Source: a virus. From it: a stretch of 30,072 nt of DNA. The notes below the pieces were generated by a model. It was given only the letters and a program-made list of their open reading frames with translations. It was not told the origin of the DNA and did no database searches. The translations under genes and the position numbers were made by a program. The stretch spans positions 1-30,072 of IMG/VR virus record IMGVR_UViG_3300010885_066418. One strand, given 5' to 3'. Positions 2,159 to 23,025 of this stretch are shown in pieces; positions within the stretch are counted from its first letter, which is position 1; every line of letters starts with the position of its first letter.

Positions 2159-2801
2159 ATTTTTCAATCATAAATTTTTTGAGTTTGAAGAATTACCGAG
2201 AGTTGTTATAGAAGGCAAGCGATACTATCAATTACCAGATGGTTCGCTTGCCAAATCTGTTACAACTGCTATCAGCGACGCATCAGATAAAACTGCATTG
2301 TATGAATGGCGTGCTAAGGTTGGTGAAGCTGAAGCGAATAAAATTTCAACTCAAGCAGCCAATCGCGGAACAGCGCTACATTCGATTTGCGAGCATTATC
2401 TTCTAAATGAAGAAAAAATGCTACCGAATACAATGCCAGTGAATGTGTTTACATTTAAACAAATTCGTCCATACATTGATGGTTGCCTAGATAATATCTA
2501 TGGAATTGAAGCTCGATTGTTTTCTTATAAATTGAAAGCAGCTGGTACTGCTGATTGTATTGCTGAATGGAATGGTATTCCTTCAATCATTGACTTCAAA
2601 ACATCTCGTAAAGAAAAGAAAGAAGAATGGATTGAGAACTATTTCCTTCAAGCAACAACTTATGCATTGATGTTCGAAGAACGAACTGGTATTGAGGTTC
2701 CTCAAATTGTTATTCTTATCGCCGTTGACGACCAAGAGCCACAAGTATTCGTAAAATCTAAGGATACTTTCGTAAAAAAGGTATTACAAATATTCGGTTG
2801 A
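2127..2801 (+). CDS. PD-(D/E)XK exonuclease, RecB/Cas4-like
   Basis: A 224-residue protein starting at TTG 2127 inside the end of phoH. The nuclease core is visible in order: RGTALHSICE at about 80-89, GTADCIAEW at 140-148 (first catalytic Asp at 143), IIDFKTSR at 154-161 (D156, K158), and QATTYAL at 175-181, the Q-xxx-Y motif shared by RecB, AddB and Cas4 nucleases. T4-like marine phages often carry such a single-domain exonuclease near phoH. It probably acts in recombination, end resection or host DNA breakdown. There are no four cysteines as in Cas4, so no Fe-S cluster is expected. The protein ends about 20 bases before a strong promoter. Confidence 0.85.
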   Translation: MQKTDSKSSRKFFNHKFFEFEELPRVVIEGKRYYQLPDGSLAKSVTTAISDASDKTALYEWRAKVGEAEANKISTQAANRGTALHSICEHYLLNEEKMLPNTMPVNVFTFKQIRPYIDGCLDNIYGIEARLFSYKLKAAGTADCIAEWNGIPSIIDFKTSRKEKKEEWIENYFLQATTYALMFEERTGIEVPQIVILIAVDDQEPQVFVKSKDTFVKKVLQIFG

Positions 2802-2826
2802 CTTTTTATTAGGCTTCGCGTATAAT
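2798..2826 (+). promoter_or_regulatory. sigma70-like promoter before the SWIM ORF
   Basis: TTGACT at 2798-2803 and a perfect TATAAT at 2821-2826 are separated by 17 bases. The predicted start of transcription (about 2832-2834) falls on the first ATG of an ATGATGATG run, so the SWIM ORF mRNA may be leaderless. Confidence 0.8.
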
Positions 2827-2832
2827 GGTAAT

Positions 2833-3843
2833 ATGATGATGAATATAGGTGAAAAAGTTACTATTCGGGCGAAAAATCCACTTTGGAAACAACGGTCTAG
2901 CTACGCTTTTTTAGTAGAAGAATACGTTTCCTATAGTGGAACGATCGTTCCTAATCCTAGGTGGGTTCCCGAGGGTGATATTTGCCTTTCTACGGGTAAT
3001 CCTAGCTTCCCGTTTCGGGTAATCGAGAGAGCCTCCCTAGACGGTCTCGAGGGCGCTCCAGAGGCTCCCGAGAAGCCCGAGAGCTCGGTTTACGCTATCG
3101 AGGGCGATAAGGGAAGCTATACTGTAACGAATACCCGAGGGATTTGGAGCTGTAGCTGTACTGGGTTCGGCTACCGCCGAAACTGCTCCCACGTGGTTAC
3201 GGCTAAGTCATTGTATTCGAAGGGTATTTTTTCAGGTGTAGCTAAGTCACTGAAAAATAAGCAAGAAAAAAAATTGAAAAAAGATGAAGAAAAGTGTTGT
3301 TTTGAATCCAAAAGAGCGGTACAATCTAATAGTAGGATGATGAAACGGGAATATTCCCCTAAAAATAAAGAGGTTATTATGGTTAAGGTTACTAAAACAG
3401 CCAAGGTTATTGAAATCATGACTAAGAATTCCTCGCGCCCGATGGCTGAGGTTTCTCGAATTATTGAAACTCAACTTCCTTGTAAGGAAGGTTACGGTAA
3501 GGTTTGGTACCGTTGGGCTGTGAGGGAGGGCGTTGCTCCTGGCGTCCTTGAAACAACAGTTAAGGTCAAGGTTGCTAAGACCAAAGAAGTTAAGAAAGTC
3601 ATCGAAAAGTCCGCTGATGAAATTGCTAAAATCAAGGAAGCCAATCTCGCTCGCCTTCGTGAAGTTTCTGAAAAAACACGCAAAGTTGTTCGTCGTGATT
3701 ATGGTGATCGTGTTGCGAAGCGTGATACTTCTGAAGGCGTCGCTGACTTTAATCCACAACTTGCTCGTGAAGAAGTCGACTCAATCCTGCGTGATGAGCG
3801 GCTGATTGAAGTTTGCCCAAAGTTTATTCGTGAAGACGCATAA
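2833..3843 (+). CDS. SWIM zinc-finger ORF, fused in frame to a second domain
   Basis: A 336-residue open frame starting at ATGATGATG. Residues 107-120 form a SWIM zinc finger (C107, C109, C118, H120; CxCx8CxH), a fold that binds DNA or proteins. A basic Lys/Glu stretch follows (about 130-155), then a poorly structured linker, then from about residue 183 a distinct domain starting MVKVTKTAKVIEIM. The first 130 codons are rich in G+C (GAG, CCC, CTC, CGG choices) unlike the AT-rich neighbours, suggesting recent acquisition. An internal promoter, palindrome, ribosome binding site and ATG (3297-3381) precede the second domain, so this may be two genes whose frames became joined. No family beyond SWIM is recognised. 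The start would be nearly leaderless. Confidence 0.7.
   Translation: MMMNIGEKVTIRAKNPLWKQRSSYAFLVEEYVSYSGTIVPNPRWVPEGDICLSTGNPSFPFRVIERASLDGLEGAPEAPEKPESSVYAIEGDKGSYTVTNTRGIWSCSCTGFGYRRNCSHVVTAKSLYSKGIFSGVAKSLKNKQEKKLKKDEEKCCFESKRAVQSNSRMMKREYSPKNKEVIMVKVTKTAKVIEIMTKNSSRPMAEVSRIIETQLPCKEGYGKVWYRWAVREGVAPGVLETTVKVKVAKTKEVKKVIEKSADEIAKIKEANLARLREVSEKTRKVVRRDYGDRVAKRDTSEGVADFNPQLAREEVDSILRDERLIEVCPKFIREDA
3297..3325 (+). promoter_or_regulatory. candidate internal promoter inside the SWIM ORF
   Basis: TTGTTT at 3297-3302 and TACAAT at 3320-3325 are 17 bases apart. As after the promoters at 2798 and 3849, ATGATG follows shortly downstream (3337). It would drive the nested gene starting at 3379. 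The -35 is weak, so this is a moderate candidate. Confidence 0.5.
3347..3358. repeat. 12-bp perfect palindrome in the nested gene's leader
   Basis: GGGAATATTCCC is a perfect inverted repeat lying between the candidate internal promoter and the ribosome binding site at 3367-3373. Its position suits an operator or a small leader hairpin; this is an inference from placement only. Confidence 0.45.
3379..3843 (+). CDS. probable nested gene: conserved basic phage protein
   Basis: An in-frame ATG at 3379 has an AAAGAGG ribosome binding site (3367-3373) five bases upstream, which is better than the start of the enclosing ORF. The 154-residue product begins MVKVTKTAKVIEIM, continues with SRPMAEVSRIIE and YGKVWYRWAVREGVAPGVL (a compact helical domain that could be a winged-helix-like fold), then a long Lys/Arg/Glu-rich helix (about 55-110) and an acidic C-terminus. 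This looks like a complete small phage protein of unknown function. I think it is independently expressed, whether or not the longer SWIM fusion is also made. Confidence 0.6.
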   Translation: MVKVTKTAKVIEIMTKNSSRPMAEVSRIIETQLPCKEGYGKVWYRWAVREGVAPGVLETTVKVKVAKTKEVKKVIEKSADEIAKIKEANLARLREVSEKTRKVVRRDYGDRVAKRDTSEGVADFNPQLAREEVDSILRDERLIEVCPKFIREDA

Positions 3844-3848
3844 ACTGG

Positions 3849-3877
3849 TTGACTTTTATCAAAAACAAACGTATAAT
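3849..3877 (+). promoter_or_regulatory. sigma70-like promoter before the DUF932 gene
   Basis: TTGACT at 3849-3854 and TATAAT at 3872-3877 are exactly 17 bases apart. ATGATG follows at 3883-3888, near the expected transcription start. The promoter closely copies the one at 2798-2826. Confidence 0.82.
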
Positions 3878-6298: not shown

Positions 6299-6375
6299 GG
6301 TCTCTTAGCTCAGCTGGATAGAGCAACGGATTTCTACTCCGTGAGTCGGGGGTTCGAATCCCTCAGAGATCGCCA
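6299..6375 (+). tRNA. tRNA-Arg (anticodon TCT)
   Basis: The 77-base sequence folds as a full cloverleaf. The acceptor stem GGTCTCT pairs with AGAGATC (one G-T pair), the D stem is GCTC/GAGC, the anticodon stem is ACGGA/TCCGT around loop TTTCTAC, the variable loop is GAGTC, and the T stem GGGGG/CCCTC encloses TTCGAAT. The discriminator is G and the CCA end is encoded. The anticodon TCT reads AGA, a codon used often in the phage's late genes and often rare in bacterial hosts. It probably supplements the host tRNA pool. Confidence 0.96.
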
Positions 6376-7297: not shown

Positions 7298-7888
7298 ATG
7301 AGTGATAACACAATGTCTGCCTTTGAATGTTTCAAAGAGTATATGGCTCTGAAGAACCATTTTACTCAGAAAAATTATGATTACTTCAAGTATAACGGAA
7401 AGACCAGAGTTACCTTTCAGAGCTTCGAATCTCGTAAGGATAAACTGTTCTTTCAAAAAGTAGCAAAGCATTCTGATCCAAAAAACTATATCCTATCCAA
7501 TTTGTTAGAGAATAACAAAGTTTGGATAAAGGATATTGCATACTCACAGAATGCCGAAGAGATATATCAACATTGGGCAAAAAGAGTACAGTCTCTTTCT
7601 TATAATTTTAAGAACGAATGTTCCAATCTGTTAGATAACTTTGATGATAACTTTAAAGTCAAATCAAATCATCCTTATTTACTAAGATTATATCTGAGCA
7701 AAGAGATTTGTTTAGAAACACTAATCATACTTGTTGATACAGTTAAGTGTATGCCTTACTGGAACAATAAGATGAGCTATGATCCTGTTTGGGAAGAAAC
7801 TGCAGATAAGATCATAAAGTATAGACCATTCCTGAAATATGATCAAGAGAAAATAAAAAAGATTCTCCTTGACAAATTCATTGAATAG
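7298..7888 (+). CDS. 59: gp59 helicase loader
   Basis: A 196-residue protein, close to T4 gp59 (about 217). The N-terminal half carries the block YDYFKYNGKTRVTFQSFESRKDKLFFQKVAK, parallel to T4 gp59 YDVIKYNWCMRV...RRDKYFFQKLSEK, then YILSNLLENNKVWIKDI, which follows the T4 FISNLVANQDAWIGDI block. The protein is basic and all-helical. In T4, gp59 binds fork DNA and gp32 and loads the gp41 helicase; gp32 follows immediately here. ATG 7298 has no clear ribosome binding site, and ATG 7313 (MSAFECF) is an alternative start. The gp32 promoter -35 lies inside its last codons. Confidence 0.9.
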   Translation: MSDNTMSAFECFKEYMALKNHFTQKNYDYFKYNGKTRVTFQSFESRKDKLFFQKVAKHSDPKNYILSNLLENNKVWIKDIAYSQNAEEIYQHWAKRVQSLSYNFKNECSNLLDNFDDNFKVKSNHPYLLRLYLSKEICLETLIILVDTVKCMPYWNNKMSYDPVWEETADKIIKYRPFLKYDQEKIKKILLDKFIE

Positions 7889-7897
7889 GGCTATACT
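7869..7897 (+). promoter_or_regulatory. sigma70-like promoter of gp32
   Basis: A perfect TTGACA (7869-7874) and TATACT (7892-7897) are 17 bases apart. Transcription should start near 7904, leaving a roughly 50-base leader before gp32. Confidence 0.8.
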
Positions 7898-7906
7898 AAA
7901 TAAGTT

Positions 7907-7937
7907 GGGCGTTGATATTGCCCTTTCATTAATACAA
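7907..7937 (+). promoter_or_regulatory. possible autoregulatory pseudoknot in the gp32 leader
   Basis: Stem 1 is GGGC 7907-7910 with GCCC 7920-7923. The loop bases TTGATATT (7912-7919) can pair with AATACAA (7931-7937), seven pairs with one bulged A at 7915. This gives an H-type pseudoknot with a 1-base first loop and a 7-base last loop at the 5' end of the predicted mRNA, the arrangement known for gene 32 mRNA of T4/T2. The ribosome binding site GGAG (7945-7948) follows. Confidence 0.4.
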
Positions 7938-7954
7938 ACAATACGGAGAATACT

Positions 7955-8869
7955 ATGACTGATTTTTCAAAACTCAAAGCTATGTCTGGTAAGAAGTCCC
8001 TTGAGCAACTTACAGCAGAACTAAACAAGTTCAATACAAATCAAGACAAATCATCCGATGATCGTTTCTGGTATCCTAATGTCGATAAGGCAGGTAATGG
8101 ATATGCAGTTATTCGTTTCCTTCCAGCTCCTGGTGAAGAAGATGTTCCGTTCATTCGTATGTTTAATCATGGTTTCAAGGGTCCGACTGGGTCTTGGTAT
8201 ATTGAAAACTCTTTGACAACTATTGGTAAGCAAGATCCAGTTGGTGAGTACAATACTCAACTTTGGAATTCTGGTCTTGAATCCGATAAGGAAGTTGCTC
8301 GTAAACAAAAGCGTAAGCTAGTTTATATCTCTAATGTCTATGTGATCACTGATCAACAGAATCCTGAAAATGAAGGTAAGGTGTTCCTGTTCAAGTACGG
8401 TAAGAAGGTATTTGATAAGCTCAATGAGGCAATGAATCCTCAGTTTGCTGATGAAGCTCCTGTGAACCCATTCGATCTTTGGACTGGTGCTAACTTCAAG
8501 TTGAAGATTCGTAATGTTGATGGCTATCGTAACTATGACAAGTCAGAGTTTTCTTCGGCTGGTCCTCTTTCAAGTGATGACTCTGAAATGGAATCAATTT
8601 GGAAGAAGTGTAACTCACTTCAAGAATTCCTTGCTCCTAGCAACTTTAAGTCCTATGATGAATTGAAGGCGAAGTTTAACAAGGTTCTTGGTCTTGATGG
8701 TTCACCTGCGACTGCTCGTGCTAAGGCAGCTATTGCTGATAGTGATGATGGAGCTCCATGGGCTGAAGCTCCTGCACCTAAGATCAAAACAGCAGCTGCT
8801 CCATCGTTCTCTGCTGCTGATGAAGATGATGATGAGTCAATTGAGTTCTTTAAGAAACTTGCTGGCTAA
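7955..8869 (+). CDS. 32: gp32 single-stranded DNA-binding protein
   Basis: A 304-residue protein, the length of T4 gp32 (about 301), with GGAG six bases before the ATG. The N-terminus contains the basic KKSLEQL segment for cooperative self-binding. The OB-fold core has FWYPNVDKAGNGYAVIRFLPAP, FNHGFKGPTGSWYIENS and DLWTGANFKLKIRNVDGYRNYDKSEF. The tail is Ala/Pro-rich then very acidic (ADEDDDESIEFFKKLAG), the domain that contacts replication partners. The zinc cysteines of T4 gp32 are absent: the stretch after WYIEN reads SLTTIGKQDPVGEYN, as in marine T4-like relatives. It coats ssDNA and organises replication and recombination. It has its own promoter, a possible pseudoknot leader and a strong terminator. 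Confidence 0.96.
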   Translation: MTDFSKLKAMSGKKSLEQLTAELNKFNTNQDKSSDDRFWYPNVDKAGNGYAVIRFLPAPGEEDVPFIRMFNHGFKGPTGSWYIENSLTTIGKQDPVGEYNTQLWNSGLESDKEVARKQKRKLVYISNVYVITDQQNPENEGKVFLFKYGKKVFDKLNEAMNPQFADEAPVNPFDLWTGANFKLKIRNVDGYRNYDKSEFSSAGPLSSDDSEMESIWKKCNSLQEFLAPSNFKSYDELKAKFNKVLGLDGSPATARAKAAIADSDDGAPWAEAPAPKIKTAAAPSFSAADEDDDESIEFFKKLAG

Positions 8870-21132: not shown

Positions 21133-23025
21133 ATGGCAGCTAATAGCTCACTGGAACTTACTTCTCTCGACTTTGATAGCACAAAAACCAGTTTAAAGAA
21201 CTTCCTCAAGGCACAGTCAGCGTTCAAAGACTATGACTTCGAGGGGTCGAATATTAATATACTGCTGGATGTATTGGCATACAATACTTTCCTTAACTCT
21301 TTTTATCTGAACATGGTAGCTTCGGAGTCATTTTTGGACTCTGCACAGCTAAGAGACAGCATCGTCAGCCATGCCAAGGAGCTGAATTACCTTCCACGTA
21401 GTAAGAAGTCATCGCGTATCACACTGGAGCCATTCGAAATATACTTGGATCCAACGGTAACTGAATTGTATATGCCGAAGGGTACAAGATTCAGCGGCAC
21501 GACTCAGGGTGTTTCACGTACATTTGTCACTGATGCAAACTATGTAAACAACACACCAATTTATGATAGCGAAAATGATCGTAATGTTTTCACTGTTTCC
21601 TATAGAGAGTATGATAATCTCGGCGGTAGCACTATCGTTAATCCATTTACTATCTACCAAGGCATCTACCAGACCGACACTTATGTTATTGACTATACGC
21701 TGGAGAACCAAAGATTTGTACTAACCGACCCTGCAGTTGATACTGACTCCATCACTGTTACTGTAAGCGAAAACTCAGGTGCAACTACCTATGACTATGT
21801 TTATACTGCAACTCTACTTGATATCAAAAGCACCGATACGAAGTTTTTCCTGCAGGCAGCTGATAATGGTAAGTATGAAGTGGTCTTTGGTGACGACATT
21901 ATCGGTCGCCGTCCACGCAATGGTGCAGTTGTTACTATCGAATACCGTGTCAGCGAAGGTGAGATGGGTAATGGTGTAACTGTATTCAACTTAGACACTG
22001 ATGTTGGTTTGACCTCTGGTGGTGTTTATAAGGGATCCAGCAAGCTGATGACTTCAGCTGAATATCCAGGTGGATCATATAACGGTGCAGACGCTGAGAG
22101 CATTGAGCAAATTCGTTTCAAAGCACCAAGATATTTCCAAACACAGGAAAGAGCTATCACCAGTACTGACTACGAGATCCTGTTGCGTAATGCATTCCCT
22201 GAGATCGAAGCTATTGCTGTATTTGGTGGTGAGACGCTGGAACCTCCACTGTATGGCAAGGTGTATGTTTCGGTTAAGCTGAAAGACGTCGAGGGTTTAC
22301 CCGATGCAAAGAAGCTGGAGTATGCTAGTTTCCTAGCTCCACGTTCACCATTATCCATTGATGCAGTATTCATTGAGCCAGAGAACCTTTATTACAACAT
22401 CACCAGTACGGTCAACTATAACATCAATATTACCAAAGACCGTCCTGATCAAATTCGTACTGCAGTTTACAACACCATTGTCAACTATGACACAGTCAAC
22501 CTACGTAATTTCAACGTGACTCTACGCAAATCCAAGCTGACATCGGCTATTGATACTGCCACAAAAAGTATTATCAGTAATGAAACTAATATTGAAATTT
22601 TCAAGAAAATCGTTCCATTCCTTAATGTCTCACAAAATATCATCATACGTTTTGGCGTTCCACTTTATGCACGTGGTCCTGAGCTAGGATTAATTCATCC
22701 TGAAAACGACACACATGCACTGACAAGCTCGTCTTTTGTAGTATCTAACCTTGGAATTGTATTACTAGAGGATGATGGTAATGGCAATGTTAGGTTAGTG
22801 CGTTCTGATGGGAATGGAAATCATATCAAGGTAAAAGATGCAGGGACAATTGACTATACTAATGGTATTATCAAGCTAGTTGACTTTAATGTTGAGAGCT
22901 ATAATGGAACGGAGCTTCGTATCTATGGTGTTCCTGAATATGATGATATCAGTATATCTGGCAATAATATTATGGAGCTTGGTACTGACGAAATTGTAAT
23001 CAACATTAAGACTGTGCGCGAATGA
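21133..23025 (+). CDS. 6: gp6 baseplate wedge protein (Baseplate J-like)
   Basis: A 630-residue protein, T4 gp6 being about 660. The N-terminus reads ELTSLDFDSTKTSLKNFLKAQSAFKDYDFEGSNINILLDVLAYNTFLNSFYLNMVASESFLDSAQLRDSIVSHAKELNYLPRSKKSS, the classical gp6 start. The middle has GNGVTVFNLDTDVG, the KAPRYFQTQERAITSTDYEILLRNAFPEIEAIAVFGGE core of the baseplate J family, and a C-terminal LAPRSPLSIDAVFIEPE. gp6 dimers form the inner ring of the baseplate that holds the wedges and gp25. It ends at an ATGA overlap with gp7. Codons are richer in C-ending and CGN choices than the block before the spacer. Confidence 0.96.
   Translation: MAANSSLELTSLDFDSTKTSLKNFLKAQSAFKDYDFEGSNINILLDVLAYNTFLNSFYLNMVASESFLDSAQLRDSIVSHAKELNYLPRSKKSSRITLEPFEIYLDPTVTELYMPKGTRFSGTTQGVSRTFVTDANYVNNTPIYDSENDRNVFTVSYREYDNLGGSTIVNPFTIYQGIYQTDTYVIDYTLENQRFVLTDPAVDTDSITVTVSENSGATTYDYVYTATLLDIKSTDTKFFLQAADNGKYEVVFGDDIIGRRPRNGAVVTIEYRVSEGEMGNGVTVFNLDTDVGLTSGGVYKGSSKLMTSAEYPGGSYNGADAESIEQIRFKAPRYFQTQERAITSTDYEILLRNAFPEIEAIAVFGGETLEPPLYGKVYVSVKLKDVEGLPDAKKLEYASFLAPRSPLSIDAVFIEPENLYYNITSTVNYNINITKDRPDQIRTAVYNTIVNYDTVNLRNFNVTLRKSKLTSAIDTATKSIISNETNIEIFKKIVPFLNVSQNIIIRFGVPLYARGPELGLIHPENDTHALTSSSFVVSNLGIVLLEDDGNGNVRLVRSDGNGNHIKVKDAGTIDYTNGIIKLVDFNVESYNGTELRIYGVPEYDDISISGNNIMELGTDEIVINIKTVRE

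Follow-up and report, generated by a model that had tools for sequence, protein, structure and literature searches.

The production of two protein forms from one reading frame is already known. For example, gene 4 of phage T7 gives primase-helicase forms of 63 and 56 kDa, the 56-kDa form being initiated at an internal start that has a ribosome-binding site of its own, and a zinc-binding N-terminal domain is described only for the full-length form (PMC12593628). In Shigella, the short form of the VirF pair (VirF30 and VirF21) is made from a gene-internal promoter and a leaderless mRNA (PMC5101355), and plasmid pIGRK encodes the in-frame, antagonistic proteins RepR and RepR' (PMC6854812).

The locus described here lies in a 30,072-base IMG/VR record (the window, meaning the whole stretch of DNA that was analyzed) of an uncultured T4-like phage with no close isolate, whose baseplate wedge protein (21133-23025) is 34-37% identical to those of T4-like phages of Sinorhizobium, Pelagibacter, and Caulobacter. 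The window also carries a tRNA-Arg gene (anticodon TCT; 6299-6375), which explains the only megablast DNA matches of positions 1-25000 to isolated phages (Aeromonas, Acinetobacter). As with T7 gene 4, two colinear phage proteins would be made from one frame by means of an internal start and ribosome-binding site; the proteins are unrelated, however, and whereas an internal start codon makes the T7 forms, the locus in the window also has a promoter and a leader hairpin, and its halves are separate genes in relatives. Like the VirF gene, it would encode a DNA-binding protein in two forms within a single frame, using a promoter inside the gene and an mRNA that lacks a leader, but the leaderless form is the short one in VirF and apparently the long one here, and VirF is cellular and involves no two-gene fusion. 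RepR and RepR' likewise differ in role, one being full-length and the other an in-frame product shortened at its N terminus, yet they come from an internal start codon in a single gene, with no sign of a two-gene fusion. Thus, while the sequence-only reading that drew attention to this locus had considered two isoforms from one frame unusual for such a phage, T7 gp4 provides a precedent (PMC12593628), and what is unusual is a fusion that keeps the promoter and leader hairpin of its second gene as a translated linker.

We consider it likely that fusion of two genes kept the control region of the downstream gene as a translated linker, giving both a long form and a short free form. Two once-separate phage genes, one encoding a SWIM zinc-finger protein and the other an HTH-like protein, would have been joined in frame through the intact control region of the second. 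The parts, their conservation, the stop-free linker, and the separate homologs can be read directly from a comparison of a few dozen metagenomic loci. The internal promoter, the 12-bp palindrome, the AAAGAGG-N5-ATG start, and the 336-residue frame all lie where the sequence-only reading had placed them (Table 1), and the internal ATG at 3379 shares the reading frame of the 336-aa ORF.

Table 1. Features of the fused locus, in window coordinates.
Feature	Position	Strand	Details or basis
Upstream sigma-70-type promoter TTGACT-N17-TATAAT, near-consensus	2798..2826	+	Promoter scan; 6-nt spacing to ATG also in L061, L030, L039
Long fused ORF	2833..3843	+	336 aa: barrel, SWIM finger, linker, HTH-like second half
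N-terminal small beta-barrel domain, residues 1-72	2833..3048	+	AlphaFold2 pLDDT about 87-96
SWIM zinc finger CSC-x8-CSH, residues 104-126	3142..3210	+	Pfam PF04434
Lys-rich linker, predicted disordered, holding the control region of the second gene	3232..3378	+	pLDDT and open-frame statistics
Internal promoter TTGTTT (3297-3302)-N17-TACAAT (3320-3325)	3297..3325	+	Window sequence and relatives
TGAA box, directly 5' of hairpin	3341..3344	+	Leader alignment: TGA invariant, TGAA in most aligned leaders
Perfect palindrome GGGAATATTCCC	3347..3358	+	RNA form GGGA[AUAU]UCCC
Ribosome-binding site AAAGAGG, 5 nt 5' of internal ATG 3379	3367..3373	+	SD-like sequences before ATG in most relatives
Second gene (predicted short form), 154 aa, starting MVKVTK	3379..3843	+	Separate-gene homologs and models
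Another promoter, ahead of DUF932 gene	3849-3877		

The protein itself is composed of recognizable modules. The AlphaFold2 model, run on 30 relatives, contains a confident small barrel (residues 1-72), a SWIM region (84-130), a three-helix unit (188-231), and a long helix (261-285); pLDDT falls below 50 at 134-141 and 147-184, and the disordered stretch ends at the internal ATG, with folded modules on both sides. VIA-align matches of the barrel include GatD and Hfq/Sm barrels (Z 5-6.7, below the family-assigning level), and the three-helix unit reaches Z 4.0-4.5 to Lrp/AsnC- and LexA-type HTH domains, scores that are tied with unrelated rows and too low to assign. A Foldseek search of the PDB with the full-length model gave no match at E 0.001. 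SWIM was the only Pfam family matched by the window protein at E 0.01: PF04434 scored 17.8-18.7 bits, just under its gathering cut-off of 19.6, and matched 9 of 30 relatives (best E 2.8e-5). The metal motif in the window is CSC-TGFGYRRN-CSH, and CxC..CxH is kept in all SWIM-bearing relatives. In Pfam and PHROGs the second half gave only weak matches, to families of unknown or unrelated function. The short form would consist of the HTH-like three-helix unit and a conserved C-terminal segment (DEIAKIKEANLARL...VCPKFIRED), and the second-half proteins of L001-L061 have four alternative N-terminal (HTH-like) sequences ahead of one strongly conserved C-terminal segment (DEIAKIKEANLARM...VCPKFVRED), a modularity that suggests domain swapping. 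In the long form, the HTH-like module is probably tethered to whatever the barrel/SWIM part binds.

Homologs of each half as separate genes, which the sequence-only reading had proposed to look for, were found for both halves in IMG/VR, so that the family is not uniformly full-length with a conserved linker. The second half is a separate gene in L001, L002, L008, L009, L012, L026, and L060, and more remotely in L072 and L073, while the SWIM half stands alone in L034/L035, L040-L043, L045-L050, and L052, where the open frame spans about 123-160 codons and stops shortly past the finger. An uncultured Caudovirales SWIM protein (BFVD A0A6J5QCI8) also matches the N-half (Foldseek E 6e-9, 33% identity); at 120 aa it has the length of the separate SWIM genes in relatives, with no room for a second half. 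Two contigs carry both genes apart, separated by several kilobases (L041 with second half L073, and L034 with L072). In the main group, wherever both flanks are visible, the second half lies between exonuclease and DUF932 genes, fused or not; in another group (L040, L042, L043, L047, L050) the SWIM gene is alone, after next gene phrog_11903. The L049 contig has the reverse order, with a remote second-half-like gene (L074, E 3e-5) directly upstream of the stand-alone SWIM gene. Among the IMG/VR relatives, we found no locus in which the N-half lies directly upstream of the second half but is separated from it by a stop. The isolated phages searched yielded no second-half homolog and, for the SWIM half, a sole remote match, from Sinorhizobium phage Phosso. 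Genome contigs of bacteria and archaea yielded no homologs. Matches L016/L017 fell within a large terminase-like protein and were dropped as not being relatives.

The internal control region has to be judged together with its relatives. Taken alone, the window promoter scores 8/12 (P 0.077 in dinucleotide shuffles), has a poor -35 (TTGTTT, 3/6), and is not listed by the promoter scanner; the hairpin alone reaches P 0.018 in shuffles. The elements recur in one order in 16 of the 17 first-set loci (10 fused and 6 separate; the exception is L060): the 17-bp-spaced promoter comes first, then the TGA(A) box, a hairpin rich in GC, in most cases an SD-like sequence, and finally the ATG. The spacing is 17 bp in all 16 leader-bearing loci, counting L004, in which the scan tied a 16-bp alternative with TTTACT-N17-TAGAAT and the 17-bp site was taken. 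In the 15 other loci, promoter P is 0.000-0.044 in 14 and 0.14 in L011, and hairpin P is 0.005-0.033. Once relatives are included, therefore, the predicted internal promoter and hairpin are clearly above chance. Inspection shows promoter-like sequences a short distance upstream of the remote separate genes L072 and L073, where the family hairpin is absent. A pattern search of the window for further uses of the leader gave no site behind a promoter other than that of the internal gene itself, at 3341.

The hairpin stem has at least 4 bp in 16 of 16 loci, and its fourth and fifth pairs swap among G-C, A-U, and C-G; hairpins were tabulated locus by locus, the MAFFT leader alignment being too gappy in the loops for pair counting. 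These compensating exchanges support an RNA hairpin, and the palindrome most plausibly forms an RNA hairpin in the 5' leader of the predicted short transcript. Perhaps, rather than a 5' hairpin that stabilizes the mRNA, it is a DNA or RNA operator through which the short protein regulates its own synthesis, a role that concerns the hairpin only and is compatible with two forms. T4 gp43, for instance, represses its own translation via a leader hairpin about 40 nt before the start (PMC3014915), and the second half is HTH-like. Across the family, however, pairing is kept while the loop and the inner stem differ widely in sequence, which disfavors a fixed recognition sequence, even if an operator that co-evolves with its protein is compatible with such variation; we regard the operator role as possible but unlikely. 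Elsewhere in the window, a gp32-like (SSB) gene has, at 7869-7955, a strong promoter TTGACA-N17-TATACT directly followed by a 5' hairpin GGGC[GTTGATATT]GCCC and a ribosome-binding site; the layout of promoter and 5' hairpin is common to this gene and the internal gene, and the sequence differs.

A comparable arrangement could in principle work without the internal promoter. A single transcript may give both isoforms if translation also initiates internally, as it does in T7 gp4 (PMC12593628), with the promoter-like site left unused, given that the long mRNA would contain the internal ribosome-binding site and ATG as well. Separate C-half genes, however, have a promoter of the same architecture in the same place, so that the site is most simply a real promoter, and we think it rather improbable that it goes unused. 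The internal promoter may nonetheless act together with internal initiation.

It is also conceivable that the long fusion alone is functional, and that the internal promoter, hairpin, and start persist as decaying remnants from the time when the gene was separate. Consistent with this, the -35 of the window is weak, and promoter scores are lower on average in fused loci (7-10, mostly 8-9) than in separate ones (9-11). The 17-bp spacing, TGA(A) box, covarying hairpin, and start are nevertheless kept in 10 of 10 fused loci, and promoters scoring 10/12 lie inside the fused frame in L020 and L039. Synonymous divergence between the window and L061, moreover, is lowest in the promoter and leader (0.15, against 0.76 in the N-half and 0.65 in the second half), and this low silent divergence indicates that the segment is constrained as DNA or RNA within a coding frame. 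Leftovers in decay thus appear to us a decidedly doubtful account, and two products from one frame, as the sequence-only reading had suggested, is the most likely interpretation of the conserved internal promoter, leader, and start.

The fused frame occurs in 10 distinct loci (window, L061, L030, L039, L011, L007, L010, L003, L004, and L020, the 5' end of the L011 locus being cut), three of which (L003, L004, L020) have lost the SWIM finger and kept the barrel domain and the in-frame joint. All 10 linkers, 51-76 codons long, are stop-free, with chance probabilities of 0.003-0.027 each in dinucleotide shuffles, while their other two frames hold 2-9 and 7-11 stops; the loci are related, and these P values are therefore not to be multiplied, but the linkers are very unlike in length and sequence. 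A chance ORF is ruled out by these open-frame statistics. The earlier description of a low-complexity leader that happens to be open thus holds in part: the linker is Lys-rich and predicted to be disordered, but openness in 10 of 10 fused loci, also after recombination, is at odds with chance. Pairwise comparisons show amino-acid changes to be just as common as silent ones in parts of the linker, as expected of a disordered tether and equally of relaxed constraint. That the short form alone matters, with the SWIM half and linker read incidentally and the frame open by accident, is highly improbable: linker amino acids are poorly conserved in several pairs and the locus often has the second half by itself, but linkers are open in every fused locus against a chance of about 1% each, openness outlived the exchange of second halves, and fused leader lengths differ by multiples of three within each phase group, whereas those of separate genes are of mixed phase.

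This phasing is informative about how the fusions arose. Counted from the -10 hexamer to the internal ATG, the phase is 2 in the window, L061, L030, L039, L011, and L003 (leader lengths 53, 56, 59, 62, and 65), 0 in L007 and L010 (57 and 60), and 1 in L004 and L020 (49 and 55), while separate genes have leaders of 49, 51, 54, 56, 57, and 57. A promoter read in three phases implies several joinings, each of which kept the frame, rather than the single loss of a stop that the sequence-only reading had offered as one explanation. L003 and L020 have near-identical N-halves (pN 0.05) followed by second halves of different types, in different phases and both open, a pattern that likewise disfavors a single ancestral stop loss and agrees with an exchange of second halves during which selection kept the joint in frame. 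On the C-half tree, which is weakly resolved, about 4-5 state changes are needed, at least 3 of them forced by well-supported branches. It is tempting to speculate, with about even confidence, that this lineage repeatedly fuses the SWIM gene to any downstream HTH-like gene, in frame through promoter, hairpin, and ribosome-binding site, such that one stretch of DNA is selected as promoter, RNA hairpin leader, and protein tether, the long form having a leaderless mRNA and the short form an mRNA with a structured leader.

Some of the fused loci, but not all, have a putative leaderless start for the long form, which counts against the two-form reading. The upstream -10 hexamer ends exactly 6 nt before the ATG in the window, L061, L030, and L039, and the same spacing is seen by eye in the truncated relative L051. 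Given the usual distance from -10 to start, this gap would put the transcription start at or beside the ATG, so that the mRNA of the long form probably lacks a leader. L003, L020, and L010 are without such an upstream promoter, and their apparent start is close to or overlaps the upstream gene.

We infer both transcripts, both proteins, and their ratio from these sequence features, and postulate the following scheme for the two-product fusion. Transcription from the upstream promoter would begin at or beside the ATG at 2833, and leaderless translation of that mRNA would yield the 336-aa long form. Transcription from the internal promoter would begin at about 3332 and give an mRNA that has a hairpin at its 5' end and carries a good ribosome-binding site; translation of this mRNA from 3379 would produce the 154-aa free form, which is probably made in larger amounts. 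As part of the protein, the promoter and leader would form a disordered tether between the modules, and the SWIM/barrel part may bring the HTH-like part to its partner, a nucleic acid or a protein.

The family catches gene fusion in the act, as the same two genes occur singly, fused in frame, and recombined among members of one phage group, and the promoter and 5' leader of the downstream gene survive as coding sequence. If the scheme is correct, such fusion would be a route by which a phage may gain a tethered version of a protein while keeping the free one, and a gene caller that annotates a single 336-aa ORF would miss the second product.
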